Shown: positions 1,474-25,098 of the stretch, piece after piece
Position numbering within the stretch: the first letter of the stretch is position 1
How the letters are laid out: each line of letters opens with the position of its first letter
DNA from: Spirochaeta sp.
GTDB taxonomy: Bacteria; Spirochaetota; Spirochaetia; DSM-2461
Assembly (NCBI GenBank): GCA_030592625.1
Contig: JAUVIY010000004.1
Coordinates: forward strand, 1-25,098
Direction of reading: 5' to 3'
Length of the DNA: 25,098 bases
Notes under the pieces: model-generated
Database searches by the model: none
The model's input: only the letters and a program-made list of their open reading frames with translations
What the model was told of the DNA's origin: nothing
Translations under genes and position numbers: made by a program

Positions 1474-1485
1474 TTCATTGTCTCC

Positions 1486-4850: not shown

Positions 4851-4852
4851 CT

Positions 4853-6555: not shown

Positions 6556-6602
6556 CTTGTGAAAGAAACGAAGTCATGCCAAATTGAATGAACCATATTA
6601 AA

Positions 6603-6608
6603 AAGGGG
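6603..6608 (+). promoter_or_regulatory. Ribosome binding site that fixes the dppA start
   Basis: AAGGGG lies six bases before the ATG at 6615. An in-frame ATG nine codons upstream (6588) has no such site and would spoil the signal peptide. Confidence 0.75.
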
Positions 6609-6614
6609 AATTGT

Positions 6615-8243: not shown

Positions 8244-8250
8244 AATGGTA

Positions 8251-8270
8251 ATAAGCTGAAAGAGGCTTAT
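8251..8270 (+). other. Small hairpin just after dppA
   Basis: ATAAGC (8251-8256) and GCTTAT (8265-8270) pair perfectly around an 8-base loop, eight bases after the dppA stop. There is no T-run. It stands in tandem with the stronger hairpin at 8289-8312. Confidence 0.4.
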
Positions 8271-8288
8271 CACATCGATTAATATGAT

Positions 8289-8312
8289 CGGCCCGCCCGC
8301 AAGGGTGGGCCG
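8289..8312 (+). other. Stable GC-rich hairpin between dppA and dppB
   Basis: CGGCCCGCCC (8289-8298) pairs with GGGTGGGCCG (8303-8312), ten pairs with one G-U wobble, closed by a GCAA loop of the stable GNRA type. It is followed by GTTTG rather than a real T-run, so it is probably a partial terminator or an mRNA 3'-end stabiliser. Such elements usually keep binding-protein mRNA in excess over permease mRNA. It ends 18 bases before the dppB ATG. Confidence 0.75.
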
Positions 8313-8330
8313 GTTTGTAAAGAACGTTCT

Positions 8331-9347: not shown

Positions 9348-9355
9348 GGCCGGGC

Positions 9356-10237: not shown

Positions 10238-10240
10238 CCT

Positions 10241-11275
10241 ATGACCGATACGGCAACAATTGAAACTTCAGCAACCGGGACAGGCGAACTGCTCGGCATT
10301 GATAATCTCAGTGTCAGCTTCCACACCCGACGAGGCGTCGTTAAGGCGGTCAGGAACCTGAATCTCAAGATCCGGGAAGGGGAAACCCTGGCTCTGGTAG
10401 GGGAATCGGGCTGCGGGAAATCCGTCACCGCTCACGCCATCACAAGGTTGGTCCCCATGCCCCCCGGCGTCATCGAAAGCGGCATCATCCGTTTCCGAGG
10501 CACCAACCTTCTCTCCCTTCCGGAGAAAGAGATGAGGTCTCTGCGTGGATCGAAGATCAGTATGATTTTCCAGGAGCCTATGACCAGCCTGAATCCCGTC
10601 TTCACCGTCGGGACCCAGATCGCCGAAGTATTCGTCACCCACGAGAAGCTGGGCAGGAAAGAAGCCTTCGCCAGGGCTGTAGAACTGCTGGACCTGGTGA
10701 AGATTCCCGACCCGGCCAAACGGGCCAAATCCTACCCCCACCAGCTCTCCGGCGGGATGCGGCAGCGGGTGATGATTGCCATGGCACTGGCCTCCCCGGA
10801 ACCGGGACTGATGATCGCCGACGAGCCGACCACCGCCCTGGACGTCACCATACAGGCTCAGATACTTCAGCTCCTGAACGAACTCAAAAAAGGGGTCGGC
10901 ATGGCCTTGCTCCTTATCACCCACGACATGGGCGTAGTCGCCGAGACCGCCGACCGTGTTGCGGTGATGTATGCGGGCCGTAAGGTTGAAGACGCCCCCG
11001 TAGAGGAACTTTTCGCCAACCCCCGGCATCCCTACACCGTGGGCCTTCTGGGATGCCAATGTTCGGCCCCATCGAACCGGAACGCCGTGCGGCTCACATC
11101 CATCAGCGGATCGGTCCCGGATCTCCTCACCCTGGGCGATGGCTGTCCGTTCGCCAACCGGTGCGGAAACGTGAAGAATGAATGTATGGAGAGTTTTCCA
11201 GACGTTTCAACGGCCGGTGAAGACCATGAATTCCGCTGTCATAACCCCATCACCGAGTCAGGAGCATCATCATGA
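10241..11275 (+). CDS. dppD: Peptide ABC transporter ATPase, DppD type
   Basis: Cytoplasmic ATPase that drives the DppBC permease together with DppF. The 344 residues contain Walker A GESGCGKS (54-61), the Q-loop Gln111 in IFQEP, the signature LSGGM (169-173), Walker B LMIADE (190-195) and the switch His228 in LITHD. The C-terminal oligopeptide/dipeptide extension is present, with the cysteine-rich [15 protein letters not shown] (about 310-324); similar clusters in some family members carry an iron-sulfur centre, but that is not shown here. The roughly 20-residue Thr/Ala-rich N-terminal lead before the ATPase fold is slightly long. The stop overlaps the dppF start as ATGA, suggesting coupled translation of the two ATPases. 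Confidence 0.95.
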
Positions 11276-12258
11276 GCGCGGAACGCAATCCCACCCCACT
11301 GCTGGCAGCCCGGGACATACAAAAGAATTTCAGAATCAAGGACGACCGGGGCCCCGCCCAGACCCTCAAAGCCGTAGACGGGGTGTCCCTGGACATCGCT
11401 CCCGGAGAGGTGGTGGGTGTGGTGGGTGAATCAGGATGCGGCAAGTCCACCCTCGGCAAGACGATATTGCGGATGTACGAGCCTGACGGCGGTACCCTCA
11501 CCTGGAAGGGCGAGGATATGACCGCGGTTTCCGGAGCGGAACTGAAGGTTATCAGAAAAGACATACAGATGATTTTCCAGGATCCCTACTCATCCCTGAA
11601 TCCCAGGAAAAAAGTGAAGAATATCATCAGCCAGCCCCTGCGGGTCCATGCTCAAGGCGATAAAGATGAGATTACCCGGCGCACCGAGGAAGTGATGCGG
11701 GAAGTGGGTATCAATCCGGTGTACGGACGCCGCTACCCTCACCAGTTCTCAGGAGGCCAGAGGCAGCGTATCGGTATTGCCCGGGCCCTGGCACTGGAAC
11801 CTGAATTTGTGGTCTGCGACGAAGCGGTAAGTGCCCTGGACGTGTCCATCCAGGCCCAGATTCTCAATCTGCTGCTGGACCTCAAGGACCGACACGGTTT
11901 CGCCAACCTGTTTATCTCCCACGATCTCTCGGTGGTAGAGTTTATATCGGAACGCATACTGGTGATGTACCTGGGCCGAATCGTGGAAAAGGCGCCCAAG
12001 ACAGAACTTATGGCGGAGCCCCTCCATCCCTATACCCGGGCCCTGCTGGCGGCATTCCCCATCGCCGATCCGTCGGTGAGGAGCACGAAAAAACAGATTG
12101 TCGTGGGAGACGTACCCTCCCCCCTGAACCCGCCTACCGGATGCCATTTCCATCCCCGCTGCCCCCTGGCAACAGATCGCTGCCGGGAAGCTTATCCGCC
12201 TCTGGTGGAAGTGGCACCGGGACGACAGGCAGCCTGCTGGGAAGTGAGCGCCGGCTGA
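11272..12258 (+). CDS. dppF: Peptide ABC transporter ATPase, DppF type
   Basis: Partner ATPase of DppD, 328 residues. It has Walker [10 protein letters not shown] (52-60), the Q-loop in IFQDPYSSLNP (101-111), the signature FSGGQ (159-163), Walker B FVVCDE (179-184) followed by AVSALD, the usual DppF/OppF variant of EPTSALD, and the switch His217 in FISHD. The C-terminal region has GCHFHPRCPLATDRC, again the family's cysteine cluster. It shares four bases with dppD. It is the last gene of the operon and converges on the sugar-permease gene, with only nine bases between the two stop codons. Confidence 0.95.
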   Translation: MSAERNPTPLLAARDIQKNFRIKDDRGPAQTLKAVDGVSLDIAPGEVVGVVGESGCGKSTLGKTILRMYEPDGGTLTWKGEDMTAVSGAELKVIRKDIQMIFQDPYSSLNPRKKVKNIISQPLRVHAQGDKDEITRRTEEVMREVGINPVYGRRYPHQFSGGQRQRIGIARALALEPEFVVCDEAVSALDVSIQAQILNLLLDLKDRHGFANLFISHDLSVVEFISERILVMYLGRIVEKAPKTELMAEPLHPYTRALLAAFPIADPSVRSTKKQIVVGDVPSPLNPPTGCHFHPRCPLATDRCREAYPPLVEVAPGRQAACWEVSAG

Positions 12259-12273
12259 TGAAAAGTATCAGCC
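12253..12273. terminator. Hairpin between convergent operons
   Basis: GGCTGAT (12253-12259) and ATCAGCC (12267-12273) pair perfectly around a 7-base centre; a G-U pair can extend the stem. It overlaps the stop codons of both dppF and the convergent permease gene. Only TTT follows on the plus strand and there is no T-run on the minus strand, so termination may be weak or aided by Rho. Confidence 0.5.
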
Positions 12274-13227
12274 TTTAACACCGCCTTCCGACAATCCTCC
12301 GGTGAGATTCTTCTGTATGGCCATGAAGAGGACGATTACCGGCAGCGCCGTCAGCATCGAACCGGCCATGATACGGTCCCAGATGGCGTTCTTGGATACA
12401 AAGAGGCTCCGCAATCCGATGGGCAGGGTGTAGAGCTGCTCATACCCCCTCAGAAACACCGATGCGAAGAGAAACTCGTTCCATGCGATCATAAAGCAGT
12501 AGATGAATACCGTCACGATGGCAGACCAGGATAAAGGAATGACAATACGCCATATGATTCCGAATCGGGACACCCCCTCGATGAGGGCGGCTTCTTCGAT
12601 GGAATAAGGTATGGTGCGGAAGAAATTTCCCAGCATGTAGAGGGAAACCGGCAGGGTCTGTACAAGGTAGATGATAAGCAAAGCCGTAAAAGTTCCCGCA
12701 GGCGTGGCCAGGAAACCCAGAGCTACGGCAATCCTGTAGAGAGGAATAAGCAGTAGGATTCCCCCGATCATATAGACGAACAGGACACCCCTTTGTATTA
12801 CCGCTCGCCCCCTGTACCGAAGTCGGCTGAAGGAATAGGCCCCCATGATTGCCAGTAGAAGCGAAAATATCGCGGCCAGTGTGGACAGGGACAGGGAATT
12901 CCGGAAGTACTTCAGGAACGGGAAAACATCGCTGCTGTCTTTGTACTTATCCAGAATCTCGTTCTTCTGCTGCTTCGTCAGGTCGGAATCGTCCAACAGG
13001 TCGAGAACCGACTGCGGGACGTTTTTCTCGTCCTGACCGATGTTCAGCAGTTCCTTGTAGGCGTCCGGATTCACCTGGGTGGGAATCAGCGAGGGATTGC
13101 CCCAGTCCCACTGGTACTTGAGAGACGTGGAGATAATCTGCAGAAACGGGAATATGCTGAATGTCACGATGAGAATAATAAGTAGAAATAAACCGATTTT
13201 ACCGGGAATGCTCCTGGCTTTTACCAT
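12268..13227 (-). CDS. Sugar ABC transporter permease, MalG-like (CUT1)
   Basis: Second inner-membrane subunit of a carbohydrate importer. The 319-residue protein has an N-terminal membrane segment (about 10-32), five more helices after residue 110, and the EAA loop EEAALIEGVSRFGIIWRIVIPLS that contacts the ATPase. It ends in NLTGGLSEGGVKG, which closely resembles the C-terminal tail of E. coli MalG. The external loop between membrane segments 1 and 2 (about 38-108) is highly charged and longer than in E. coli MalG by roughly 25 residues. The ATG at 13227 overlaps the stop of the upstream permease gene by seven bases. No ATPase gene lies nearby, so a shared MsmX/MalK-type ATPase encoded elsewhere is likely. 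The sugar is unknown. Confidence 0.92.
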   Translation of the reverse strand: MVKARSIPGKIGLFLLIILIVTFSIFPFLQIISTSLKYQWDWGNPSLIPTQVNPDAYKELLNIGQDEKNVPQSVLDLLDDSDLTKQQKNEILDKYKDSSDVFPFLKYFRNSLSLSTLAAIFSLLLAIMGAYSFSRLRYRGRAVIQRGVLFVYMIGGILLLIPLYRIAVALGFLATPAGTFTALLIIYLVQTLPVSLYMLGNFFRTIPYSIEEAALIEGVSRFGIIWRIVIPLSWSAIVTVFIYCFMIAWNEFLFASVFLRGYEQLYTLPIGLRSLFVSKNAIWDRIMAGSMLTALPVIVLFMAIQKNLTGGLSEGGVKG

Positions 13228-14093
13228 TTGAGTACCTTCTTCACATAGAACAGGATAAAGCCGATCAACAATGCGAATTGCAGAATAACCAATGCCGAGC
13301 CCTGGCCGAGATCAACCACACCGACAAAAGCCTTGAAATAGGTGTAGATTGACAGCACCTTCAGGTTATCGGTGAGCAGAAAGATATCTTCGAACTTGTT
13401 GAAGTTCCAGATAACCCGCAAGAGAACGATAGACCCCAGGACGAAATAGAGTTCCGGCATGGTGATGAATCGGAACTGCTGCCATCGACCGGCACCGTCG
13501 ACATCCGCAGCTTCGTACATGCTTTTATCGATTGCCTGCAGCCGGGCGAGGATCATCAGATAGGTGAACGGAAAGTTTTTCCAGATACTGAAGACAATGG
13601 CAACCCACAGCGCAGTTTCCGGATTGCCGATCAGGTTGAATCTCTGCTCGAAGAGCCCCAGCCTCTCAACCATCACATCCATAAAAATTCCGTTTACCGG
13701 GTCGAAAATGAATTTCCAGGCGTACACCACGGAGAAAACCGGCGCTACATACGGAAGGAGAATCAGACTGCGCACAAGTCCTCTCAGGGGAAATGTCTTG
13801 TTCATGACTATGGCCACGCCGAGCCCTACCAATGTAGTACCCAGGGTGGTTCCCACGACATAGACAAGGGTTATCATCACAGATCTCCAGAATTCCGGAT
13901 CACTGACGATATTCCTGTAATTCTCCAGTCCGACGAAGGTATCCCGGTCCATCAGGGAAACCTTGAAGAAGCTCGAGATGATGTTTGTTATAATTGGATA
14001 GAGTATCAGGCTGAGGATGATAATTGTGGCCGGCAGGACAAGCCACCAACCCAGCATGGCTTCCTTCTGCTCAAGACTTCTGGTTTTTTTCAT
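13221..14093 (-). CDS. Sugar ABC transporter permease, MalF/UgpA-like (CUT1)
   Basis: First permease subunit of the carbohydrate importer, 290 residues with about six membrane helices and the short N-terminus (KEAMLGWWLVLPATIIIL) of the three-component UgpA/LacF type rather than the long MalF of E. coli. The EAA loop reads YEAADVDGAGRWQQFRFITMPEL (about 192-214), and FKVSLMDRDTFVGLENYRNI is the typical first external loop. The ATG at 14093 is preceded by GGGAG about eight bases upstream. It shares seven bases with the next permease gene, so the pair is probably translated together. A strong hairpin lies between it and the binding-protein gene. The substrate cannot be read from the permease sequence. 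Confidence 0.92.
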   Translation of the reverse strand: MKKTRSLEQKEAMLGWWLVLPATIIILSLILYPIITNIISSFFKVSLMDRDTFVGLENYRNIVSDPEFWRSVMITLVYVVGTTLGTTLVGLGVAIVMNKTFPLRGLVRSLILLPYVAPVFSVVYAWKFIFDPVNGIFMDVMVERLGLFEQRFNLIGNPETALWVAIVFSIWKNFPFTYLMILARLQAIDKSMYEAADVDGAGRWQQFRFITMPELYFVLGSIVLLRVIWNFNKFEDIFLLTDNLKVLSIYTYFKAFVGVVDLGQGSALVILQFALLIGFILFYVKKVLKW

Positions 14094-14175: not shown

Positions 14176-15546
14176 TTACATCAGCTTGCGCATTTCCGCT
14201 TCAGCCCAGTCCATGGCTTTATCAACACTCATGCCCTCCTGGGTAATCTTGTAGATCATCTGAGGGATAATCTGCTTCGAGTAAATCACGCTGGCTGCGT
14301 CGATCCTCTTACCGTCAACAATACCGAAGGTTTCGATGCTGTCCAGGCCGTTGATAATCTCGGCCATTTTATCAGTGCCGTAATTCTCGAAGAGGCCCTT
14401 GGGATCCTGCTGGAACCGGGGATTCACGGCAATATCCTTGATGACAGGATTCATTCCGCCGGGAGCCATGTGCAGGAATGTAATGTAGGCATTGGGGGAG
14501 AACAGATACCGGACGAATTTCTGGGCCGCAGCGGTCTCTGCGGCATTCCCGGTGTCGGGGAAGGCCAGGGAGACAATAGTCCCGTAGCCGGCATCCTGAG
14601 TGTTGGTGATGATTGGTGCCATACGGGTATTTTTCACGAGATCGGGGTCGAAGCTGGTTCCCGCCAGTTCGGCAAAGTTCTCGCTGGTGAGGGATCCGGC
14701 GGCATTTTCGGCCAGGGCCAGATCGTCCATGATGTAGGTGGAGTAGAAGAACATGGCCATCTTATTCTGAATGTAGTAGTCCCGGGCACGCCAGGTCTGT
14801 GGACCGGGAGGATTATACTGAGCCAGTTCAGCATAATATTCTAGGGCTTCCTTCATCTCCGGTGAATTGAAAATCAGCTTACCGTCTCTATCGAAGAGAC
14901 CGGCACCGTTGGACATGGCGAACTGGGTGAAGCATTGCTCCGCGTAAGCTTCAGCCATGGTTCCCACCAGGATACCATACTGGTTATTGCCGGGATCGTA
15001 GAAGTATTCGGCGGCTTTAATGATGTCGTCCCATTTTTTGGGGGGATTGAGGCCGGCTTTCTCAAACCAGTCGGCCCGGTACCAGATGCCCTGAACCCAA
15101 CCGTGGAAGGGGACGGAATAGTAGTTGCCGCCGGAACCGGTCTGATTCAACTTGAGAACTCCGTCGTAGAATTCATCGGCACCGATATCATTAATCAGAT
15201 CGGTGGCGGCCGCTTCATTCAGCAGGCCGGCGGTGCCGAAGGCAACGGTGTTCGGGGTGGCGGCCTCTAACAGAGCGGGGAGAGTTCCCGCGGATGCGGA
15301 GGTATTCATCTGGGTGGCCATTTGGTTTTCATCCACCGCAATGACTTTAACCGTGATATCCGGGTTCATCACCTGAAAGGTGTCAACCAGGACGCCGATG
15401 GTAGCGAGCCGATCGGATTGGGTCTGGGTGGTCCAGTATTCGATGGTAACCGGACCGGAATCAGCCGCAGCTTCGGTGTCGCCGTTGGCATAAGCCATAC
15501 TCAATACCGCGATCGCCATCAGGGCGATCAGTGCAAGACGTTTCAT
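14176..15546 (-). CDS. Extracellular sugar-binding protein (SBP family 1)
   Basis: Periplasmic receptor of the adjacent CUT1 sugar importer, 456 residues. A signal peptide MKRLALIALMAIAVLSMAYA with an AYA cleavage site at 20/21 and no lipobox predicts a soluble protein. The mature protein starts with a short acidic stretch and then VTIEYWTTQTQSDRLATIGVL, the standard first strand of family-1 binding proteins. YSVPFHGWVQGIWYRADWFEKAGL (about 142-165) is the conserved hinge and ligand-cleft segment, and SLAFPDTGNAAETAAAQKFVRYLFSP is the typical C-lobe region. The ATG at 15546 has AAGGAG about five bases upstream. An inverted-repeat array that looks like an operator lies in front of the gene, so it probably has its own promoter. 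The ligand is unknown; oligosaccharide or glycerol-phosphate-type substrates are possible. Confidence 0.93.
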   Translation of the reverse strand: MKRLALIALMAIAVLSMAYANGDTEAAADSGPVTIEYWTTQTQSDRLATIGVLVDTFQVMNPDITVKVIAVDENQMATQMNTSASAGTLPALLEAATPNTVAFGTAGLLNEAAATDLINDIGADEFYDGVLKLNQTGSGGNYYSVPFHGWVQGIWYRADWFEKAGLNPPKKWDDIIKAAEYFYDPGNNQYGILVGTMAEAYAEQCFTQFAMSNGAGLFDRDGKLIFNSPEMKEALEYYAELAQYNPPGPQTWRARDYYIQNKMAMFFYSTYIMDDLALAENAAGSLTSENFAELAGTSFDPDLVKNTRMAPIITNTQDAGYGTIVSLAFPDTGNAAETAAAQKFVRYLFSPNAYITFLHMAPGGMNPVIKDIAVNPRFQQDPKGLFENYGTDKMAEIINGLDSIETFGIVDGKRIDAASVIYSKQIIPQMIYKITQEGMSVDKAMDWAEAEMRKLM

Positions 15547-15589: not shown

Positions 15590-15641
15590 CATACCGGTAC
15601 CCGTGCTATCACAACGTCAATTTGGTACCGGTATGGTACCG
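15590..15641. promoter_or_regulatory. Operator-like inverted and direct repeats upstream of the sugar ABC operon
   Basis: CATACCGGTACC (15590-15601) and its exact complement GGTACCGGTATG (15624-15635) form a 12-base inverted repeat 22 bases apart. Each arm contains a TACCGGTA core that is itself palindromic. GGTACCG recurs at 15635-15641, 11 bases after the copy at 15624-15630, which is one helical turn. A TTGACG -35-like box on the minus strand (15620-15615) lies between the arms, but no convincing -10 box follows. This looks like a paired binding site for a regulator of the sugar operon. Confidence 0.65.
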
Positions 15642-15660: not shown

Positions 15661-16329
15661 TTAATGCTTCAGCAGGTGCTGGCAGAAGTCTTTAAGTCGT
15701 GAGTCCTGAGCGGCCTTCATAACCACGATACGCTCGTGGACGCCAAGTTTCCTGTAGATATGACAGATGTGGTTCTTCACCGTCTGTTCCGAAAGATAGA
15801 GGTGTTCAGCTATGACCGGATTATCATATCCCCGGGACATCAGGAAGAGGACTTCCCGTTCACGGTGGCTCAGCTTTTCTATAGGGAAAGGTCCCTCGGC
15901 ATCCTTTTTCACAGGCGGTTTAACCAGGTGGGACACGACGTCTGGAGAGAGCTGGATTGTTCCTGCCATCACGGCCCGTATAGACTCCAGGAGCATCTTT
16001 GATGGTATATTCTTCAACAGGTAACCCACCGCACCGTATGACAGGGCGTCGTGTACATAGTCATCGTCATCGAAAGTGGTGAGTACCAGAATGGAAATAT
16101 CCGGAGCCGCCTCATGAATACGCCTGGTAGCTTCCACGCCGTCCATCACGGGCATGCGGATATCCATGAGAATCAGATCGGGTTTATGCTCAAGAGCCAG
16201 CCGTACCGCCTGCTCTCCATTATCCGCAGTCGCCACTACTTGAATTTCGTCATCCTGGATTTCGAGGACCGTCTTGAGGTTCTCGACGAACAGGCGCTGA
16301 TCATCAGCCAGCAGTATTCTGATCGGCAT
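15661..16329 (-). CDS. NarL/LuxR-family response regulator
   Basis: DNA-binding output protein of the two-component system encoded with the kinase gene upstream. From the ATG at 16329 it has 222 residues. The receiver domain (about 1-120) shows the acidic pair Asp9/Asp10, the phospho-acceptor Asp56 in LILMDIRMP, Thr84 in LVLTT and Lys106 in YLLKN. A linker precedes a LuxR-type helix-turn-helix (about 153-200: LSHREREVL, then LSEQTVKNHICHIYRKLGV). A TTG directly upstream is in frame, but AGGAGG (16341-16336) is six bases before the ATG, so I chose the ATG. It overlaps the kinase gene by 26 bases. Targets are unknown; the neighbouring TRAP operon and the sugar operon downstream are the nearest candidates. 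Confidence 0.94.
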   Translation of the reverse strand: MPIRILLADDQRLFVENLKTVLEIQDDEIQVVATADNGEQAVRLALEHKPDLILMDIRMPVMDGVEATRRIHEAAPDISILVLTTFDDDDYVHDALSYGAVGYLLKNIPSKMLLESIRAVMAGTIQLSPDVVSHLVKPPVKKDAEGPFPIEKLSHREREVLFLMSRGYDNPVIAEHLYLSEQTVKNHICHIYRKLGVHERIVVMKAAQDSRLKDFCQHLLKH

Positions 16330-17545
16330 CAACCTCCTCCTCGTTCGACAGGGGTATCATGGCTTTCACCTCGAAACCGTCGGGCCCGGGTCCCACCTGG
16401 AGATTGCCTCCCAGTGCATCCACTCTCTCCCTCATTCCGGATATGCCGATTCCTTCCTTGATATCACCGGAACTCTTCCCATTATCCCTTACAATGATAC
16501 GAAGTGCATCCCGATCCTGCCAGAGGTAAATCACTATCTCGGTAGCCATGCCGTGACGGAGTGAATTCGTCATTCCTTCCTGGACAAGACGGTACACCGC
16601 TTTCTCAACGGCAAGCGGCCATCGGACGGAAATATTCCCGAATTCAGCAATAACCTTGATCCCCGAAACTTCACTGAACGCATTGACAAGCCTCTGTATG
16701 GCGGACAAACCCGATATCGTGGGATCTTCACGCGCACGGAGCTGCCGCATCGTCTGACGGGTCTGTTCCAGACAGAGGGATGCCTCTTCCACGGACTGAT
16801 CTATTAGCCGGACCGTTTCTTCGGGCCTGGTGGGTAATTGCAGGGATGCGGCTTCCAGCATCACCCGGATATTCGTCAGCGAATATCCCACGGTGTCGTG
16901 GATCTCCCGGGAGACCCGCCGGCGTTCCTCAGCGATGGATCGACCACTGATCTCCTGGGCATATCCCTGATAACCCAGGTTCGCTTCGGCCAGCTTGGAC
17001 ACGGCCAGGTCCAGACGATCAACAGAATCACGCCAACTTCTCTCACGATCCGTCATGAAGCTCAGCCCCATGGAGAGGATCGCAGAAGGAAGTGTGAAGG
17101 CCAGAAAGATCAGAAGTCCATTCCGTCCCAACGACGGAGTCAGGACACCGAAAACAAGCTGCTCCGGCACGATGACGATAAGAATCACTAGAGTAGACCC
17201 GAGAATGATACCTGCGGCCCAGGGCGGTTTCTGATGAAATCCGACTTCCTGGAAGATTGCGATCAGCAGGAGAACCGGAATCAGTGGATAGCCGCCGGTG
17301 GTGAAGCCGATCAGACATGTGATACCAATGCGAAGAAATAAGGTGAAACGCGAATTGCCTTCGTCTCCGAATATCCCGAGGATTACCAGAAAACCGGATA
17401 AACCCAGAAGAAATCGATATTGCCACATGAATCGTTCAAGAAACGGAAACTCGTCCACAATGTTGGGTACCAGCAATATGACACCGGCATGAATGATAAG
17501 GGAGGACAGTGCGGTGGCAATGCGGAAACGGCGCCCGGCATTCAT
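16304..17545 (-). CDS. NarL-partner sensor histidine kinase with multi-span membrane domain
   Basis: Membrane sensor that phosphorylates the co-encoded regulator. The 413 residues begin with about five to six membrane helices (roughly 8-30, 43-60, 66-83, 87-100, 110-135, 142-164) and hardly any external domain, so the signal is probably sensed within the membrane. A short coiled-coil leads to the HisKA_3 dimerisation helix with the phospho-acceptor His216 in REIHDTVGYSL. The HATPase domain has Asn327 in QEGMTNSLRHG, Asp354 in VRDNGKSSG and the G2 loop GIGISGMRERV. The ATG at 17545 directly abuts AAGGT, an unusually tight spacing, so initiation may depend on coupling to dctQM, which ends 27 bases upstream. 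Its link to TRAP transport is inferred from position only. Confidence 0.9.
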   Translation of the reverse strand: MNAGRRFRIATALSSLIIHAGVILLVPNIVDEFPFLERFMWQYRFLLGLSGFLVILGIFGDEGNSRFTLFLRIGITCLIGFTTGGYPLIPVLLLIAIFQEVGFHQKPPWAAGIILGSTLVILIVIVPEQLVFGVLTPSLGRNGLLIFLAFTLPSAILSMGLSFMTDRERSWRDSVDRLDLAVSKLAEANLGYQGYAQEISGRSIAEERRRVSREIHDTVGYSLTNIRVMLEAASLQLPTRPEETVRLIDQSVEEASLCLEQTRQTMRQLRAREDPTISGLSAIQRLVNAFSEVSGIKVIAEFGNISVRWPLAVEKAVYRLVQEGMTNSLRHGMATEIVIYLWQDRDALRIIVRDNGKSSGDIKEGIGISGMRERVDALGGNLQVGPGPDGFEVKAMIPLSNEEEVDADQNTAG

Positions 17546-17550
17546 ACCTT

Positions 17551-17575
17551 AAGGATTCTAACCCAAAGGATTCTA
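17551..17575 (-). repeat. 15-base tandem duplication containing the dctQM stop codon
   Basis: On the minus strand TAGAATCCTTTGGGT is followed directly by TAGAATCCTTAAGGT, 13 of 15 identical, with a perfect 10-base core at 17575-17566 and 17560-17551. The unit starts with the stop codon and is a multiple of three, so the second copy offers a second in-frame TAG, followed by TAA. Confidence 0.7.
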
Positions 17576-19438
17576 TCCCAGCAACGCCAGACTGAACCAG
17601 GGCACATAGGTTATGAGTAAAACTGCGACGATAAGTACAAGCAGGAAAGGCACCACCTGCCTGTAAACCCGGCTCATCGGTTCGTTGAAGGTATAACTGG
17701 CCAGGAAGAGATTCATCCCCACCGGCGGTGTCAAGTATCCCAGCTGCAGGTTGGCCAGAAATATCACCCCGAGCTGTACCGGATGCACCCCGTAGAGGGC
17801 GCCCAAAGGTACGATAAGCGGTGCCACCACCAGAATGGCCGAATAGATATCCATCAGAGTTCCGGTTATCAGCAGCGCCAGGTTGAGAAGTATGAGAAAG
17901 ACGAATCTGGATGAGATATGGTCGCGAAAAAATGCCGTCAGCATGGTAGGAACCTGGGCGTCCACAATGAAGTAACTCAGGCCTTTGGCCATGGCCAGGA
18001 TTACCAGTACGCCTCCGATTACCGGAACGCCCCGACGCAGAACCCGGGAGATAAGATCCAGGGACAATTCTTTCGTGACTAAGGTGAGCAACAGTGTATA
18101 TACGACGGCCAGGGCAGACGTTTCCACCACTGTGGTGAGTCCCGTGAAGTAGGAAACCAGCAGGATGACGGGCAGCAGCAGATCACCGAGGGCACTATTG
18201 AAGGCCAAACGGAATTCACGGAATACAAACGGGATTCTTTCGCTCTTGTTCCTGGCGGCCCGAACGATACCCATAGTCGAAAGAGCCACCACCAAGAGGA
18301 TACCCGGAAGCAGTCCGCCGAGGAACATGTCCTTGATGCTGATCTGCGCCACGACACCGTACATGATGATGGGAAGTGCCGGAGGAAAAAGCAGTCCGAC
18401 GCTTCCCGAGGAGGTGATGAGTCCCCTGGAGAAGTCTTCACCGTATTGTTTACTTTCCACCAGTACCGATGCCAGCAGGCCGCCGAGGGCCAGAATCGTT
18501 ACTCCGGAAGCACCGGTAAAGGTCGTGAAATAGGCACAGGCCACAACGGCCACCACCGCCAGGCCGCCGGGAAGCCATCCCAGGGCCGCACGGAAGAAGC
18601 GGACAAGCCTCTTCCCGGAAGAACTCTCGGAGAGCAGATAACCTGTGATGGTAAACAGAGGTATTGCAGGAATCATGTTTCCCGTAAGCAGATTGTAGGC
18701 TTCATTCGGTAATGTAGCCAGCATGCCCCAGTTTCCGGAAAAGAGGAACAAGGCCGTCCCACCCAGCATGACGTAAATGGGCAGTCCCCGGACTCCCAGA
18801 AAGATAAGTGCTGCTATAAGCGGCCAGCGAAGCCAACGGAAAATACTCCAGAAAACTTCCTGACTGTCGTAGAAAGCGAAAGGAAGATCGGGAAAGGCGA
18901 CTTCGAGAAGATTTACGATGCTCACCCAGGAAAAAACAATTCCCAGAAACAAACCCAAAGCCAGCCATGGTGAGGCTTTTTCCCGAGGTCGCCAGAGAGC
19001 CCGAAGCGACATGGAAAGATAACCGATGGGTAGAATAATAAGAATCAGCCGTATCGGCAGTACGCCGACTGTCTCACCCGGCCCGAATCCACGAACCAGA
19101 AACGATGCCGAGGCAACGGCAAATGCCATGTTTACCGCCGTGACGGTAACGCCTTTCATAACATCGATATTTTTCCAGAAACGCCCTTCCGGTTCGGCCG
19201 AGGAGCTCAAGGAAAGATGCACATCCTCCCTGGACGCGGTGATACCCCCAACCCATGCGACCCAAACCACCACATGGGTGAGAAAACCGGTGGACCAGAT
19301 GAGACCTGATCCGCTGATTTTCCTCAATACAATCTCGATAACGGGAACAAGCGCCAGGGCCAGCAGGCAAACACCGCCAATCAGATCTTCGATAAATGCA
19401 ACACGGTCGCCCCGGAAACGCTTCTTTGTATCAGCCAT
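17573..19438 (-). CDS. TRAP transporter permease, fused DctQ and DctM subunits
   Basis: Secondary importer driven by a sodium or proton gradient, working with periplasmic DctP-type receptors. The 621-residue protein joins the small four-helix DctQ unit (about 1-165) to the large DctM unit (about 190-621, many helices). DctM hallmarks include FTGASGVTILALGGLLASVL (about 305-325), SSGSVGLLFPPALPIIMYG and, near the C-terminus, IFLANLQLGYLTPPVGMNLFLASY. Such fusions are common in the family. The ATG at 19438 has AGGA about seven bases upstream. It follows dctP1 after 19 bases and precedes the kinase gene, indicating one operon. No separate DctQ gene exists in the window, so the fusion probably serves both binding proteins. 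Confidence 0.94.
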   Translation of the reverse strand: MADTKKRFRGDRVAFIEDLIGGVCLLALALVPVIEIVLRKISGSGLIWSTGFLTHVVVWVAWVGGITASREDVHLSLSSSAEPEGRFWKNIDVMKGVTVTAVNMAFAVASASFLVRGFGPGETVGVLPIRLILIILPIGYLSMSLRALWRPREKASPWLALGLFLGIVFSWVSIVNLLEVAFPDLPFAFYDSQEVFWSIFRWLRWPLIAALIFLGVRGLPIYVMLGGTALFLFSGNWGMLATLPNEAYNLLTGNMIPAIPLFTITGYLLSESSSGKRLVRFFRAALGWLPGGLAVVAVVACAYFTTFTGASGVTILALGGLLASVLVESKQYGEDFSRGLITSSGSVGLLFPPALPIIMYGVVAQISIKDMFLGGLLPGILLVVALSTMGIVRAARNKSERIPFVFREFRLAFNSALGDLLLPVILLVSYFTGLTTVVETSALAVVYTLLLTLVTKELSLDLISRVLRRGVPVIGGVLVILAMAKGLSYFIVDAQVPTMLTAFFRDHISSRFVFLILLNLALLITGTLMDIYSAILVVAPLIVPLGALYGVHPVQLGVIFLANLQLGYLTPPVGMNLFLASYTFNEPMSRVYRQVVPFLLVLIVAVLLITYVPWFSLALLG

Positions 19439-19457
19439 CGATTATCCTAAACATATT

Positions 19458-20468
19458 TTATTTCCTGATCCCTTCCAGCTCGCTCAATAAGTTGTTGTAA
19501 ACCTCAGTAGGAATAGCCTTGCCCTCACCAACCATCAGTTCATGCCCGCTCATCATAACGGATTCCCAGGCATTAATTCCTTCTTCATCAAGAGGAACCT
19601 GCTTCAATCCGTTCTCCAGCATCACTCTCATCGCCTCTTCATTCAGGCGGACGGATTCGGCATAAAATTCCCTTGCAACATTCCGCATGGACGTTTTCAG
19701 TTCATCATGGAATTCCTCAGGGATTCGCGACCATGTTCTTTCGGTCATTACAAGGCCGCCGATTACCGGGGCCACCCTGTATTCGGTTATGTACGGGGCC
19801 AGGGCGAACCACTGGAAGGCACCCGCTCCCACAGGAGGTGCAATGAATACGTTCGCAAAACCGCTCTGAAGAGCTACCATGATTTCGTTGATACTCACGG
19901 GAACGACATTGAATCCCAGTGACTTGAATGCCGAGCTTATCTCACTCTCGGTATTATCCACCGCCAGAGTTTCTTTTTTAAGATCGTCGGGGCTGTAAAT
20001 CGGCCGTTGACCGAATATATAGGCCCATCCGGATTTCGACCAGGCCATGATTTCGAATCCCTCTTCCCGAAACTTCTCGTCGAATCGATCCACATAATGA
20101 TCCAGGACATAATCAAGTTCTTCTTCATCCTGCAGCAGACCGGGCAGTGTGAACACAAAGGTTTCAGGCACCATCACTTTAAGTCCGTATGCGGAGAAAA
20201 CCCCGGCGTCTATCTGGCCGATGCGCATTTTCCTCACCATGTCGCCTTCATCCCCGGCAATTCCGCCGGGATAGATTCTCATACGAACACGACCACCGGT
20301 GATTTCACTCCACTCATCAGCCATTCGCCTGAGTGTATTGTCCCACTCGGTCCCTTCAGGAAGAGTACTGGCAAGCTTGATGGTGAGGGCAGAGAGCGAC
20401 AGGGGCAATTGAAGCAGAAACAGGAGAAGAACGATGAGTCGCAAGAGACTCTTTTTCATGTTATACAT
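19458..20468 (-). CDS. dctP: TRAP transporter substrate-binding protein, DctP family (copy 1)
   Basis: Periplasmic receptor for the DctQM permease, 336 residues. It has a signal peptide (about 1-27, hydrophobic LIVLLLFLLQLPLSLSA) without lipobox. The mature part starts LTIKLASTLPEGTEWDN, as usual for DctP. RVRMRIYPGGIAGDEGDMVRKMRIGQIDAGVF (60-91) is the conserved first-lobe region. Where typical DctP proteins have a KIR motif whose arginine holds the substrate carboxylate, this one reads KKETLAVDNTE (164-174), with no arginine. Two ATG codons compete: 20468, nine bases after AAAGGT, and 20459; I chose the first. It is about half identical by eye to the next gene upstream, so the two are likely duplicates. 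The substrate is unknown. Confidence 0.92.
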   Translation of the reverse strand: MYNMKKSLLRLIVLLLFLLQLPLSLSALTIKLASTLPEGTEWDNTLRRMADEWSEITGGRVRMRIYPGGIAGDEGDMVRKMRIGQIDAGVFSAYGLKVMVPETFVFTLPGLLQDEEELDYVLDHYVDRFDEKFREEGFEIMAWSKSGWAYIFGQRPIYSPDDLKKETLAVDNTESEISSAFKSLGFNVVPVSINEIMVALQSGFANVFIAPPVGAGAFQWFALAPYITEYRVAPVIGGLVMTERTWSRIPEEFHDELKTSMRNVAREFYAESVRLNEEAMRVMLENGLKQVPLDEEGINAWESVMMSGHELMVGEGKAIPTEVYNNLLSELEGIRK

Positions 20469-20503
20469 CAGCTTGATACCTTTAAAATAAACATGAGTGC
20501 AAT

Positions 20504-21505
20504 TTACCTCAAGCCTTCCAGTGCAGAAACAAACTTCCGGAACAGATCGTCATCAATCCACTTCCCCTCGCCGACAACAAGCTTATGTCCGCCGGTCATG
20601 ACATCGTACCACTGCTGCAACTCCGCCGGGTTGAGCTTCTCTACCTGAAGCCCGTGACGATTCATGACATTCATTGCTTCGGTATTGAGGCGCTCAGACT
20701 CCGCGTAGAAGTCCCGGGCAACCGTTTCTGTAGCTGCCTTCAGTTCATCATGATAGCGGTCCGGAATCCGATTCCAGGTTCTTTCACTGATAATAAAGCC
20801 TCCCAGTACCGGAGCCAGAGGAAAGTTGATCATATGAGGTGCCAGGGCGAACCACTGGTAGGCCGCGGCCGCCATGGGAGGAGCGTAAAACGCGCTTACC
20901 ATACCGCTCTGTAAAGCCACCATAAGTTCACTCAAGGCTGTGGGCACGACATTGAATCCAAGGGCCTTGAAATTCATCGCCAGCTCTTCATCGGCGCTGC
21001 TCACCGACAGTTTCTCGTTCATAAGCGAATTCGGAGTCCTGAGAGATTTCTTAGCAAAAAAGTAGGCCCAGCCGCTCTTGGACCAGGCAAGAATCCGAAA
21101 TCCCTCATCGATGAAATCCTCATCGAATCCCGAGGCGAATTCATCGATGACATAATTGAGTTCAGCTTCGGATTGCAGTATTCCCGGCAGGCTCATGACA
21201 AAGGTATTGGGAACAATGGATTGCAGGCCGAAAGTGGTAAGGACACCGGCATCCAGCTGACCGAAGCGCATCTTGCGTATCATATCGGCTTCATCTCCGG
21301 CGACACCGCCGGGATAAATCCTCATTCTCACCTGTCCATTGGTGATATCCGACCATTCGGCCGCCATGCGTTTCAGAGATGAATCCCATGCGGTTCCTTC
21401 CGGGAACGGGCTTCCCAGTTTCACAGTCAGAGCCAAAAGCGGTGTGAGCGAGACAAACAGAACAAGAAAAATGAATAAGCCTGTTTTTTTTAATATTATC
21501 ATCAT
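20504..21505 (-). CDS. dctP: TRAP transporter substrate-binding protein, DctP family (copy 2)
   Basis: Second DctP-type receptor, 333 residues and clearly related to copy 1 over its whole length; compare VRMRIYPGGVAGDEADMIRKMRFGQLDAGVL and AWSKSGWAYFF with the same segments there. A signal peptide covers about residues 1-25 (FIFLVLFVSLTPLLA) without lipobox. It too lacks the family's substrate-clamping arginine: the segment reads MNEKLSVSSADEE (162-174). Two adjacent ATG codons (21505 and 21502) follow AAAGGATT; either may be used. It lies 18 bases after the TatT-like gene and 35 bases before copy 1. The order tatT-dctP resembles Treponema pallidum Tp0956-Tp0957, making this copy the closer positional match to TatP. 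Confidence 0.92.
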   Translation of the reverse strand: MMIILKKTGLFIFLVLFVSLTPLLALTVKLGSPFPEGTAWDSSLKRMAAEWSDITNGQVRMRIYPGGVAGDEADMIRKMRFGQLDAGVLTTFGLQSIVPNTFVMSLPGILQSEAELNYVIDEFASGFDEDFIDEGFRILAWSKSGWAYFFAKKSLRTPNSLMNEKLSVSSADEELAMNFKALGFNVVPTALSELMVALQSGMVSAFYAPPMAAAAYQWFALAPHMINFPLAPVLGGFIISERTWNRIPDRYHDELKAATETVARDFYAESERLNTEAMNVMNRHGLQVEKLNPAELQQWYDVMTGGHKLVVGEGKWIDDDLFRKFVSALEGLR

Positions 21506-21523
21506 TGAATCCTTTGTTTTTTC

Positions 21524-22522
21524 CTATAAAACAACCAGAAAAAAGTACTCGATATTCTCGAGCAGCCATCGGGCTTTGTTCTGGTATATGAGAATCATCA
21601 GCCGGGAGTCGGGATTGGCTTCCGGATCTATCAAAAGAGCCTCGTCGAGATACCTGCGGAAACCCGTGACATCCTGCTCTTTCACCGAGACAGCCGTGGC
21701 CATGGTGAGATGAGGTGAGGGATCGGTTCCCTCTGAAAGGGCCAGAGCCCGGTAATAATGGTAGAATGCCCGTTTCTCAGTATCGTCTCCGACTCCTGCA
21801 GCGGCATAATAATCATCCATAAACGTCGTGGCGGCGGGACTTCGCTCCCGCATGGTCACCAGTATCGATGAAGGAATAGAAAGCTGGAGCTGTATCATGA
21901 TGTCATGAATCCCGGGATTGGTTTCATCCAGTTCCAGTGAGCGGTAGAGAAGTAGAGTCGCCTTGTCCAGGGTCATGGCGAGCTCCATATCGAAGGGATC
22001 GGTACTTGCCATTCCGAGCCAGGCCATACCCGCCCAGTAGGCCGCATCGGCATCTTCTTCCTCAAGCAGAGCCATGGCTTCGTCGTACTCGCCGGCCTCA
22101 AACAGGGCCTCGAATTCCTCATGTCTGAGATACAGGGCCTGCAGCAGATAGTCCCTGCCCCGGAGATAGAGTTTCTTGGCCCTTTTCCGTCCCTCATCGG
22201 CCTCGCGCCAGTACATATCGTCCAGCATGTCGGCAGGCATCTGGACGAAAGCACCGGAATACATAACAAAATTCTTCCCGGTGGCCGCTGCCAGGTCGGA
22301 GTTCTCCGGGTCTTTTTCCAGGATAATCTCGTACAGTTTCAAGGCCAGGGGCAGGGAATCGGCCACGAGCTGTGGATCGTTATCCGAGGTGAATGCTCCG
22401 GAGCCTTCCGGGGATGAAAGCATATCCGATACTGAACTGATGGCAGCCCTCTCGATGGTTTTACATGATACGAGTGCAAATACCGCCGAAGCGGCAATAA
22501 ACAGGAGAAAACCCTTCTTCAT
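21524..22522 (-). CDS. tatT: TRAP-transporter-associated lipoprotein, TatT type
   Basis: Probable periplasmic lipoprotein, 332 residues, that partners a DctP-type receptor. The signal peptide MKKGFLLFIAASAVFALVSC ends in a lipobox with Cys20, so membrane anchoring by lipidation is expected. The mature part starts KTIERAAISSVSDMLSS and contains DNDPQLVADSLPLALKLYE, resembling T. pallidum TatT (Tp0956). The rest is strongly helical, with repeated segments of TPR-like character (YLRGRDYLLQALYLRHEEFEALF, KATLLLYRSLELDETNPGIHD). TatT of T. pallidum is a trimer with a pore-like channel that binds TatP; the same role here is inferred from sequence and from dctP following directly. The open frame extends 12 codons upstream to a TTG, but that part is not signal-like. 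No ribosome site precedes the ATG; a promoter sits directly in front (see findings). Confidence 0.88.
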   Translation of the reverse strand: MKKGFLLFIAASAVFALVSCKTIERAAISSVSDMLSSPEGSGAFTSDNDPQLVADSLPLALKLYEIILEKDPENSDLAAATGKNFVMYSGAFVQMPADMLDDMYWREADEGRKRAKKLYLRGRDYLLQALYLRHEEFEALFEAGEYDEAMALLEEEDADAAYWAGMAWLGMASTDPFDMELAMTLDKATLLLYRSLELDETNPGIHDIMIQLQLSIPSSILVTMRERSPAATTFMDDYYAAAGVGDDTEKRAFYHYYRALALSEGTDPSPHLTMATAVSVKEQDVTGFRRYLDEALLIDPEANPDSRLMILIYQNKARWLLENIEYFFLVVL

Positions 22523-22562: not shown

Positions 22563-23609
22563 TTACAGGTAATTAAGTATGTCGGGCACCTGTCCGGATA
22601 TCCGGCGATAGGCCGTCGGCATAGGCAGCTCCTGCAGTTTTTCCAGAGGGAAAAAGTTTGTATCAGGAAGCCCGATTACCGGAGCTGTTCCCCGTTCGTC
22701 GTTACGCCGGAAAATCCGGGGCTGGAGAACTTCCCTGTAACGGGTATAGGCATGAATCTGCTCCGACAATTCACCTGCGGGTTCCCACCATTTCTCAAGC
22801 CCCTCGATTTCAGACTCAGCCGGAAAAACCCAAAGCCCTTTGCCGATACCTTTCATCCTTTTCCGCATCAGGATTCTTCCGCCGTCATAGAGGATAGCCA
22901 GTCTTGTCTTTTTTTGAATGACCTCCTGGCGGCGCCGCGGTGGTATGCTTTCCTGCCGTCCCTCCAACCGGGCCAGACAGCATAAGGCGAGGGGGCAGTC
23001 CCCGCAACGGGGAGATCGGGGGGTACAGACCAGCTGCCCCAACTGCATCAGCGCCGCGTTCATCTCCCCGGGATTCTCAAGAGGCATCAGTTCTTCTACG
23101 GCGCTTCTGAAAACCGTTTCCAACTCTTTGTCCCAGATCTCCCGGGCACTCAGTCGCTGGGCAATACGCCGGCCGTTGGCGTCGATGGCCGCCCTGCGCT
23201 TACCGAATGCGAAAGACGCCACCGCCGCCGCAATGTACTCCCCCACTCCCGGCAGACGCCGAAGTTCGGCAGGTTCTTCAGGAATGCGGCCCCCGTAAGC
23301 CGTACGGATCTCTGCTACAGCCACCGCAAGATTACGGGCCCGGTTGTAATAACCCAAACCCTCCCATTCTCTGAGCACCTCTTCCTCATCGGCGGCAGCC
23401 AGAGCTTCAGGACTGGGGAAGCGTTTCATCCAGCTGCGGTAACGAGGCTCAACGGCAGCGACAGTGGTCTGTTGAAGCATCACTTCAGAAACCCAGATAC
23501 CCCAGACATCCAGTGAATCCGATGAACCCGCCCAGGGGTAGGAAACGCCATGCACCCGGAACCATATCAGGAGAGCTTCGGCGGAATCCTCGTTGAGATT
23601 AATCGTCAT
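22563..23609 (-). CDS. mutY: A/G-specific adenine DNA glycosylase
   Basis: MutY removes adenine mispaired with 8-oxoguanine, preventing G-to-T mutations. From the ATG at 23609 it has 348 residues. The catalytic Glu42 is in SEVMLQQT, the helix-hairpin-helix reads LPGVGEYIAAAV (119-130) and the catalytic Asp143 is in AIDANG. Four cysteines in C-x6-C-x2-C-x5-C spacing (195, 202, 205, 211) would hold the 4Fe-4S cluster. A compact C-terminal domain (about 235-348) resembles the 8-oxoG-reading Nudix-like domain (ILMRKRMKGIGKGLWVFPAE). The frame is open 18 codons further upstream to an ATG at 23663, but that stretch lies in the RluA-type gene and does not look like MutY. The chosen start still overlaps that gene by 11 bases. 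Neither start has a clear ribosome site. Confidence 0.93.
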   Translation of the reverse strand: MTINLNEDSAEALLIWFRVHGVSYPWAGSSDSLDVWGIWVSEVMLQQTTVAAVEPRYRSWMKRFPSPEALAAADEEEVLREWEGLGYYNRARNLAVAVAEIRTAYGGRIPEEPAELRRLPGVGEYIAAAVASFAFGKRRAAIDANGRRIAQRLSAREIWDKELETVFRSAVEELMPLENPGEMNAALMQLGQLVCTPRSPRCGDCPLALCCLARLEGRQESIPPRRRQEVIQKKTRLAILYDGGRILMRKRMKGIGKGLWVFPAESEIEGLEKWWEPAGELSEQIHAYTRYREVLQPRIFRRNDERGTAPVIGLPDTNFFPLEKLQELPMPTAYRRISGQVPDILNYL

Positions 23610-24324
23610 TATCGACGAAAACGCCCGTCGGTTCCGAACCCCCGAATTGAGAGGCGAAGGCATTCCATACCGGATCGTCGGGAGGCGGCGCGATAATCAC
23701 CACCCGGCCGTCCCGGGTAGGGTGGGCCACTTCCAGACGCCGGGCATGCAGATGAATGCCGCCGTTACGGTTGGACCTCTTTGCCCCGTACTTCAGGTCG
23801 CCCTTCACCGGGCAGCCGATAGCCGATAGCTGTGCGCGGATCTGATGATGCCTGCCGGTGAGGAGTTCAACTTCCAACAGCCAGTAACGCTCGGAGGCCC
23901 CCAGTAGCCGGTATCGGAGCCTGGCTTCCCTGGCACCCGGGATGTCTGAACTCACCCGACTGGCGGTATTGGTACGGCCGTCTTTCTTCAGCCAATCCAC
24001 CAGCTCCCCCTCAGGATTCCCCGGCGGTGCTTCAGTGACGGCCCAGTAGATTTTACCGGTATCCCTTTCCCGGAAGGACGCGGTGAGCCGGGTGAGAGCC
24101 TTGGAGGTTTTCGCCAGAATCAGAGCGCCGCTGCTGGGCCGGTCGAGACGGTGGGGAAGACCCAGGAAAACGTTTCCCGGCTTGCCGTCCCTTTCCTTGA
24201 TGAACGCTTTCATGGCCTCAAGGACGCAGGCATCGCCGGTTCGATCGCCCTGCACCAGCATACCGATAGGCTTGTTCACGACGAGAACGTGATTGTCTTC
24301 GTACAGGATGTCGGGAACCGTCAT
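23599..24324 (-). CDS. RluA-family RNA pseudouridine synthase
   Basis: Converts specific uridines in ribosomal or transfer RNA to pseudouridine. From the ATG at 24324 it has 241 residues and begins MTVPDILYEDNHVLVVNKP, the normal family start. The catalytic motif is HRLDRPSSGALIL (58-70), with the catalytic Asp61 and PSS in place of the more common TSG. TGRHHQIRAQLSAIGCPVKGDLKYG is the conserved second motif. There is no S4 domain at the N-terminus, so it is a short, stand-alone catalytic domain; the exact RNA target cannot be assigned. The frame is open to a TTG at 24372, inside the preceding kinase-like gene, which I did not accept. No clear ribosome site precedes the ATG, and the gap to the gene upstream is 22 bases. 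Confidence 0.9.
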   Translation of the reverse strand: MTVPDILYEDNHVLVVNKPIGMLVQGDRTGDACVLEAMKAFIKERDGKPGNVFLGLPHRLDRPSSGALILAKTSKALTRLTASFRERDTGKIYWAVTEAPPGNPEGELVDWLKKDGRTNTASRVSSDIPGAREARLRYRLLGASERYWLLEVELLTGRHHQIRAQLSAIGCPVKGDLKYGAKRSNRNGGIHLHARRLEVAHPTRDGRVVIIAPPPDDPVWNAFASQFGGSEPTGVFVDNDD

Positions 24325-24346
24325 AAGCGCATAGTGTACAGGCGGG

Positions 24347-25098
24347 TCAGTGGTGGCGCCAGAGGTCAACAAGGAGAAAGATGCCTATCAGCCCTGAGAA
24401 CAGGAAACCCAGGACGCCGATAACGGGAATCCCGAATACCAGGGGCGGTATGAGGGACTGCACCAGGATTGAGGAACCCATAATCATGGCGGCCAGCAGT
24501 ATCGCCGCCGAGAGCCGGGTTACAACCCTCTTCAGGGTGGTATCGATAGTCTTCATATCTTTCAATTCGAATTCCATCCTGAGCTTACCGGCCTTGAGCA
24601 GGCTCAGGAGGTCTCGGGCTTCCCCGGGGAAATCCCGGATAAAACGCAGGGTATCTCCGGAGGCCCCGGCAATCTGTTCGGCAATTCTATCAGGATTCAG
24701 TTCCTTGCGGATCATGCGTTTGGCAAAAGGGCGGGAGGCCCGGATGAAATCGAAATCAGGATCCAGGCCGCTGGCGATGTCCTCGATTGTGGAAAGGGCT
24801 TTGCCCAGCAGGTAGAAATTCGATGGTATCTCGATTTCGTAACGCCGAATCAGTGCCATCATGGCCGAGACCATTTCTCCGATATCAAGACGTCCGAAAG
24901 GCCGGGAGAGGTAATGTTCGATTATGTGCTCCATATCCATGGTAAGCCGCCGGGCGACGTCGGGGTCACGGTAGCCGGACCAGCCCAGAACGGCCCTTAC
25001 CGCCCGGACGGCATCGGAGCGGATGAGGGCGGCCAGAAGATCGGCCAGAAAGACCCGCTGACTGGGAAGGATGCTCCCCACCTGACCGAAGTCCAGGA
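24347..25098 (-). CDS. ABC1/UbiB-family kinase-like protein, C-terminal part (cut by window edge)
   Basis: C-terminal 249 residues of a larger protein whose reading frame stays open to the last base. The first visible residues are LDFGQVGS, the DFG metal-binding motif of the ABC1/UbiB atypical kinases, where DFGMVG is common. A long helical region follows (for example ADLLAALIRSDAVRAV and IEIPSNFYLLGKALSTIED, typical of the family after the kinase core). Two C-terminal membrane helices (about 195-245) end in GIFLLVDLWRHH, so the protein is likely anchored in the inner membrane. Family members act in quinone synthesis or lipid homeostasis as ATPases; the role here is unknown. A GTG at 25081 is only an internal valine, not the start. 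Confidence 0.85.
   Translation of the reverse strand, partial: LDFGQVGSILPSQRVFLADLLAALIRSDAVRAVRAVLGWSGYRDPDVARRLTMDMEHIIEHYLSRPFGRLDIGEMVSAMMALIRRYEIEIPSNFYLLGKALSTIEDIASGLDPDFDFIRASRPFAKRMIRKELNPDRIAEQIAGASGDTLRFIRDFPGEARDLLSLLKAGKLRMEFELKDMKTIDTTLKRVVTRLSAAILLAAMIMGSSILVQSLIPPLVFGIPVIGVLGFLFSGLIGIFLLVDLWRHH

Follow-up and report, generated by a model that had tools for sequence, protein, structure and literature searches.

A two-receptor TatT-associated TRAP transporter adjoining a two-component system and a sugar-type ABC importer in Spirochaeta sp.

The stretch of DNA analysed here, called the window, comprises 25,098 bases from Spirochaeta sp. (positions 1-25098 of a contig in a 73%-complete assembly). 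Six minus-strand open reading frames (ORFs) follow each other in the order tatT > dctP2 > dctP1 > dctQM > kinase > regulator, and all of them are present where a preliminary description of the sequence had placed them. The intergenic gaps along the tatT-to-kinase run are 18, 35, 19 and 27 bases, and the kinase and regulator ORFs overlap by 29 bases, or by 26 if the ATG of the regulator is taken as its start. A binding-protein gene of an ABC importer starts 114 bases downstream of the regulator, just outside the run that had been described. Sequence comparison suggests, with a probability of about 0.85, that two adjacent modules meet here, a two-receptor TatT-associated TRAP transporter (TPAT) and a kinase-regulator-ABC importer module. 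Their features are as follows.

21524..22522, minus strand: tatT, a TPR-like lipoprotein and T-component of the TPAT (Pfam TAtT, 1.8e-61; PDB Tp0956/TatT, 3.5e-36)
20504..21505, minus strand: dctP2, the first copy of the TPAT receptor (Pfam DctP, 6.2e-40; PDB Tp0957)
19458..20468, minus strand: dctP1, the second copy of the TPAT receptor (Pfam DctP, 3.1e-42; 55% identical to dctP2)
17573..19438, minus strand: dctQM, a fused TRAP permease (DctM, 3.4e-71; DctQ, 1.8e-06; TIGR00786 above cut-off)
16304..17545, minus strand: histidine kinase with HisKA_3 and HATPase_c (HisKA_3, 1.5e-13; hydropathy; neighbourhoods)
15661..16332, minus strand: NarL/LuxR-type response regulator, partner of the kinase (Response_reg and GerE)
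15624..15640, minus strand: predicted operator GGTACC-ATACC-GGTACC (conservation across importer loci)
14176..15546, minus strand: sugar-type ABC solute-binding protein, SBP_bac_1 (Pfam; PDB 8vqk, 2.4e-58; orthologues behind kinase-regulator pairs)
13221..14093, minus strand: ABC permease A of the same importer (orthologues right after the binding protein in 12 of 20 neighbourhoods)
12268..13227, minus strand: ABC permease B of the same importer (BPD_transp_1, 1.5e-12; same conserved order)

The TatT-associated TRAP transporter

By homology, tatT-dctP2-dctP1-dctQM is a TPAT, a described class of transporter. Membership in this class is indicated by an adjacent TatT homologue, an arginine-less Tp0957-like receptor and a fused DctQM, all of which were found. 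The sole PDB sequence matched by TatT was Tp0956 (3.5e-36), and TatT carries the lipobox LVSC at residues 17-20, of which SC is nearly invariant across an alignment of 24 sequences. The best PDB matches of dctP2 were the Tp0957 entries 3u65_B and 4di3_D (1.9e-41 and 5.5e-41), with the next receptor at 6.4e-17; this comparison was made with dctP2, and dctP1 is tied in by its identity to dctP2. The dctQM gene encodes one protein of 621 residues, with DctQ at 29-148, whose match (1.8e-06) sits exactly at the cut-off, and DctM at 210-615. A lipobox is absent from both dctP2 and dctP1 (no cysteine within the first 40 residues of either), and the N-terminal hydrophobic segment of dctP2 resembles a type I signal peptide.

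The TPAT of Treponema pallidum was reportedly studied by Deka in 2012 and by Brautigam in 2012. As described for T. pallidum, a TatT trimer docks the receptors, and hydrophobic ligands have been proposed (PMC5812351; this and the other papers given by PMC number are represented here by excerpts). The T. pallidum system (Tp0956 TatT, Tp0957 TatP(T) and TatQM) and the window have in common a TatT lipoprotein, an arginine-less receptor and a fused DctQM that are encoded together, whereas the window has two receptors, neither with a lipobox, and Tp0957 is reported to be a lipoprotein (PMC5812351). Tp0957 has an alanine in place of the carboxylate-binding arginine of classical receptors (PMC4646407). 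SiaPQM, a classical DctP-type TRAP transporter, shares the DctP receptor family and the DctQM permease with the window, but the window receptors lack the carboxylate arginine and the window has TatT (PMC4646407). BstC, a TatT-family protein of a methanotroph, binds sterols and belongs to the same superfamily as the window TatT (TRAP transporter T-component), but it lacks two helices of Tp0956 and is part of a sterol-trafficking set (PMC10942540). According to the same excerpts, it has yet to be established which ligands TPATs carry physiologically (PMC10942540, PMC4646407).

We compared the receptors encoded beside tatT at the best 80 of 170 confirmed TatT loci, taken from named genomes (L and G numbers are our handles for loci and genomes). 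These loci gave 83 receptor ORFs; four pieces of at most 800 bases were dropped and 79 were aligned. The column equivalent to Arg147 of SiaP holds serine in dctP2 and alanine in dctP1, and arginine is missing from it in 78 of the 79 TatT-adjacent receptors. A second column, likewise arginine in the classical chain, is without it in 79 of 79; the reference for both columns is a single classical chain, 4ng7. The loss of arginine in nearly all TatT-adjacent receptors turns a single-structure oddity into a class-wide signature. Since the arginine is lost, which is the sole basis used here, the TPAT probably carries fatty or other greasy (hydrophobic) molecules. The only receptor with arginine at the Arg147-equivalent column is the second one of L018; this copy may have a carboxylate as its ligand, or the column may be misaligned.

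The kinase-regulator pair, the importer and a predicted operator

The preliminary description had expected the order tatT-dctP-dctP-dctQM-kinase-regulator to be conserved in relatives, a refuting test set in advance. Eight genomes of the same genus were examined, five of them with tatT, and the kinase lies behind dctQM in one of these five, the nearest relative (G004, whose locus is L005/L117). There was no kinase in the 7.7 to 8.7 kb beyond dctQM in G002, G005 and G007, nor in G003, where just 0.7 kb of contig could be inspected. Of the named TatT loci, 52 have a full-length dctQM followed by 1 kb or more of sequence, a set that excludes L005, which is cut by a contig end. In none of the 52 does the kinase lie behind dctQM, and two of them (L045 and L053) gave weak receiver matches of 28-30 bits on the opposite strand.

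Judged by its neighbourhoods in relatives, the kinase-regulator pair belongs to the downstream ABC-importer module, not to the TPAT. The kinase, whose N-terminus is a mostly hydrophobic membrane domain of about 165 residues by hydropathy, had 117 matches in relatives. Twenty neighbourhoods near the top of the list were fetched, one per genome (G038 is outside the 20 though ranked above a few that were included). In 12 of them the order is kinase-regulator-binding protein-permease-permease, with orthologues of the window importer. The binding-protein orthologues score 653 to 779 bits, and the regulators paired with the kinase in these 12 relatives are 50-61% identical to that of the window; one of the 12, G030, has about 1.9 kb between regulator and binding protein. 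The permeases precede the kinase on a short contig in G021, more distant ABC permeases adjoin the pair in six neighbourhoods (L178 and L180-L184), and the contig of L169 stops right after the kinase. None of the 20 neighbourhoods contains tatT; DctQM-like ORFs with weak scores (74 and 176 bits) occur several kb from the kinase in L167 and L169. Thus, of what the preliminary description had drawn as one system, the TatT-type TRAP part enlarged by a second receptor stands, and the wiring of the kinase and regulator to that part is not borne out, since in relatives the pair precedes an ABC importer that has a promoter motif in common with that of the window. The case shows how guesses of function from operon structure go astray when they rely on close spacing by itself; the deciding information lay in the next operon downstream.

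The downstream importer is, by homology, a sugar-type ABC system. The second-best PDB match of its binding protein was 8vqk, E. coli YcjN (2.4e-58), and two permeases follow, as in YcjN-type sugar ABC importers. Unlike these, the window importer is preceded by a HisKA_3 kinase, a NarL-type regulator and a conserved operator-like repeat. No ATPase gene was found on the importer strand within the run.

An alignment of the regulator-to-binding-protein gaps from the window and 12 relatives revealed the repeat, GGTACY-N5-GGTACY, with an 11-base period. It lies roughly 83-117 bases before the importer ATG, 94 in the window, where 15624-15640 is the only such site. The strict pattern is present at 12 and the relaxed pattern at 13 of the 13 importer loci with the pair (window included), against means of 0.003 and 0.01 loci in dinucleotide shuffles. 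In the stretches of the 12 relatives the relaxed pattern occurs only before the importer, plus one site directly before the kinase in G025. Because the pattern had been read off these first 13 loci, a held-out test was made on all 21 kinase places from a 297-genome class search that had not yet been fetched. The kinase-regulator-importer order was found in 10 of these 21 further neighbourhoods, and tatT or dctQM matches in none. At the held-out loci with an importer orthologue the repeat was directly upstream in 10/10 (9 strict, 1 relaxed); in L215 and L222 the contig stops inside the importer. Three of the 11 held-out loci without the orthologue are taken up below; among the rest, L221 has relaxed sites in its regulator-importer gap, L226 has one elsewhere and six have none.

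The repeat was absent from all seven importer orthologues without an adjoining pair (G002, G003, G007, G027, G028, G032 and the second copy of G029), for which between 1.1 and 5.8 kb upstream were inspected. These controls include a protein just 45% identical (G028) and a binding-protein gene without a permease match beside it (G003). The operator footprint is therefore present at importer loci with the pair and absent at those without it, and pair and motif co-occur without exception over all 30 importer loci. No repeat was found in the 13 selected tatT upstream regions, from the window and relatives, or at 78 named TatT loci; two more had too little upstream sequence. A genome-wide operator search allowing at most one mismatch showed no excess (51 matches versus 63 for a reversed-pattern control), and the second exact genomic site lies on a 5.8-kb contig (C321) with no module gene.

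We predict that the GGTACY repeat is the operator of the NarL-type regulator. NarL-type regulators are associated with repeated half-sites. A conserved AT-rich, -10-like block about 35 bases downstream of the repeat would put it near -56, which is a usual position for activator sites. The predicted operator offers a concrete target for a spirochaete two-component system. A 12-base inverted repeat, CATACCGGTACC/GGTACCGGTATG (15590-15635), was considered as the functional unit and rejected; relatives conserve the 11-base-period GGTACY repeat instead.

A tree of binding proteins from 28 of the 30 importer loci, all but L209 and L215, intermixes those that have the pair and those that lack it, and well-supported branches force at least three changes. 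The window protein clusters with the one from G003, a genome of the same genus whose importer has neither pair nor motif there. A recent foreign origin of the kinase-regulator part was considered and is unsupported; its GC of 0.52-0.54 is like that of the neighbours, and the binding protein groups with the same genus. At L199 (G027) and L201 (the second copy of G029) the sequence just upstream of the binding-protein gene, inspected by eye, seems to code for the last part of a LacI-type regulator; its position where the pair is not beside the importer suggests regulator replacement. The pairs in L178 and L180-L184 are HisKA_3/NarL-type pairs beside distant ABC permease pairs without the GGTACY repeat, and therefore the pairing of a kinase and regulator with ABC genes looks common in these spirochaetes.

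Two modules, their junction and the receptor pair

In the two-module reading, the TatT lipoprotein would hold a hydrophobic ligand in its pore and hand it over to either arginine-less DctP, and both receptors would feed the single fused DctQM, an ion-driven secondary transporter. The membrane-embedded kinase would phosphorylate the NarL-type regulator, which would bind GGTACY-N5-GGTACY upstream of the binding-protein gene and turn on, rather than repress, the sugar-type importer. The comparisons give no sign that the kinase would serve the TPAT.

Several points weigh against this reading. The 10 held-out loci with the importer come from four genera, of which just two (7 loci) are new; two of the training loci, G050 and G030, have close counterparts among them, G070 (97% identity) and G055 (about 80%), respectively. 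L212 and L213 have 4.3-4.4 kb between regulator and importer. Strict sites lie beside a pair without an orthologue of the window's importer in L216, L225 and L227, and therefore the motif may be shared by a broader set of regulators. The half-sites are palindromic, and therefore direct and inverted repeats are indistinguishable. The junction of dctQM and kinase is kept in the closest relative, so it has survived some divergence. Moreover, four TatT loci outside the genus have a large hybrid kinase divergently upstream of tatT (L017, 7057-9882; L019, 7144-9885; L025, 2541-6148; L028, 4819-8865). These kinases have the architecture PAS-HisKA-HATPase-two or three receivers-Hpt, a two-receiver protein intervenes in L025 and L028, and in the four loci the distance between the tatT ORF and the closest signalling ORF is about 100-135 bases. 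It is possible that they represent a true link between TPAT and signalling in another clade, and TPAT-linked signalling would thus have precedent outside the genus.

Juxtaposition of the TPAT and importer modules is confined, among the loci examined, to this species and, to the contig limit, its nearest relative. The gap between dctQM and kinase is 27 bases in the window and 12 in L005, whose kinase is 77% identical to that of the window over the first 102 residues, where the contig ends. Since these gaps are so short, read-through from the TPAT into the kinase is likely in both, which would place the regulator of the importer under TPAT transcription in this lineage. One explanation goes further and is compatible with the two-module reading. 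It supposes that in this lineage the kinase-regulator pair no longer has a promoter of its own and depends on read-through from the TPAT operon, with the level of the importer regulator set by TPAT expression. We consider this a tentative proposal with somewhat less than an even chance. The two gaps are too short for a separate promoter outside dctQM, and the kinase follows dctQM in two species; on the other hand, the final part of dctQM may contain a promoter, and the two species are two genomes only, one of them cut by a contig end. At 17546-17575 the window has a small tandem duplication, with TAGAATCCTT present twice and the first copy beginning with the dctQM stop codon. The corresponding gap of L005 has one copy of TAGAATCCTT with one base changed.

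Two receptor ORFs are present at 7 of the 80 TatT loci, one at 69, and none in range at 4. The seven are L018, L061 and the five of the window's genus, L005-L009, which correspond to G004, G007, G002, G003 and G005. In a tree of 40 sequences selected from the available receptors, dctP2 of the window and five genus copies form one clade and dctP1 likewise another (support 98/96 and 100/99), and both nest in one clade of 12 (100/99). Because the two clades are separate inside a joint one, the tree identifies a single duplication as the origin of dctP2 and dctP1, and both were kept in 6/6 genus loci examined. The receptor pairs of L018 and L061 group by locus and therefore suggest separate duplications or conversion. 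In the two-module reading, these old paralogues would have been kept side by side most likely since each binds different members of a related ligand set. That the two copies are redundant, raising the dosage of a receptor for the same ligand, seems rather unlikely to us. Just three columns are fixed differently between the dctP2 and dctP1 sets, all of them conservative swaps, as redundancy would allow, yet the copies within a locus are only 40-55% identical (55% in the window) and both have been retained in every genus locus, and two-copy TatT loci with their own grouping occur outside the genus as well. A genus with two receptors, one TatT and one permease is a natural comparison for finding TPAT ligands.

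It is a doubtful extension that in this lineage the TPAT operon captured the pair of the sugar importer, that one transcript couples hydrophobic uptake to the supply of the importer's activator, and that the two diverged receptors, with a single TatT and permease between them, form a lipid port of mixed specificity. We reject as very improbable a self-sensing circuit, in which TPAT traffic or cargo would be the signal for the kinase and the TPAT genes the target of the regulator: the tight same-strand spacing, the junction retained in the nearest relative and a precedent from the unrelated TTT family, where the binding protein BctC passes a signal to the two-component system BctDE (PMC5812351), speak for it, but the kinase is missing behind dctQM in the other four tatT-bearing genus relatives (one with its 0.7 kb) and at 52/52 TatT loci, the order is unconserved, the pair sits elsewhere with an ABC importer, and no operator-like site lies before tatT in the 13 upstream regions, that of the window included, or at 78/78 named loci. 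BctDE-BctCBA of Bordetella likewise has a two-component system adjoining a binding-protein-dependent secondary transporter, but it belongs to that unrelated family and its regulators control the adjacent transporter, whereas in the window the evidence favours the ABC importer (PMC5812351, as excerpted). Searches of the open-licence literature turned up neither a two-receptor TPAT nor one paired with a two-component system, nor any GGTACY operator. What remains at this locus is a two-receptor variant of the TPAT, a predicted operator and a junction, specific to this lineage, through which both modules may be transcribed together.

A candidate promoter had been placed only before tatT; a consensus scan lists none in the 40 bases there. 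The scan found 7 promoter-like sites, with 6.8 expected from shuffles and thus no excess, and it is weak evidence because the conserved stretch upstream of the ABC importer gene likewise yields no site in it. These 40 bases separate tatT from the end of mutY on the same strand, and an rluA-type gene is upstream of mutY. The rluA-type gene and mutY (window 22563-24372) before tatT recur in kin. mutY adjoins tatT in G004, G005, G007, G011, G020, G023, G024 and G025, and is not beside it in G002, G003, G009, G014 and G022. Among named TatT loci with enough upstream sequence, just 4 of 72 have mutY beside tatT. On the other side of the window (253-6247 and 6588-12258), a tryptophan-synthesis run adjoins an oligopeptide-type ABC importer on the opposite strand, and the run has fused enzymes, GATase-TrpD-like and IGPS-PRAI.

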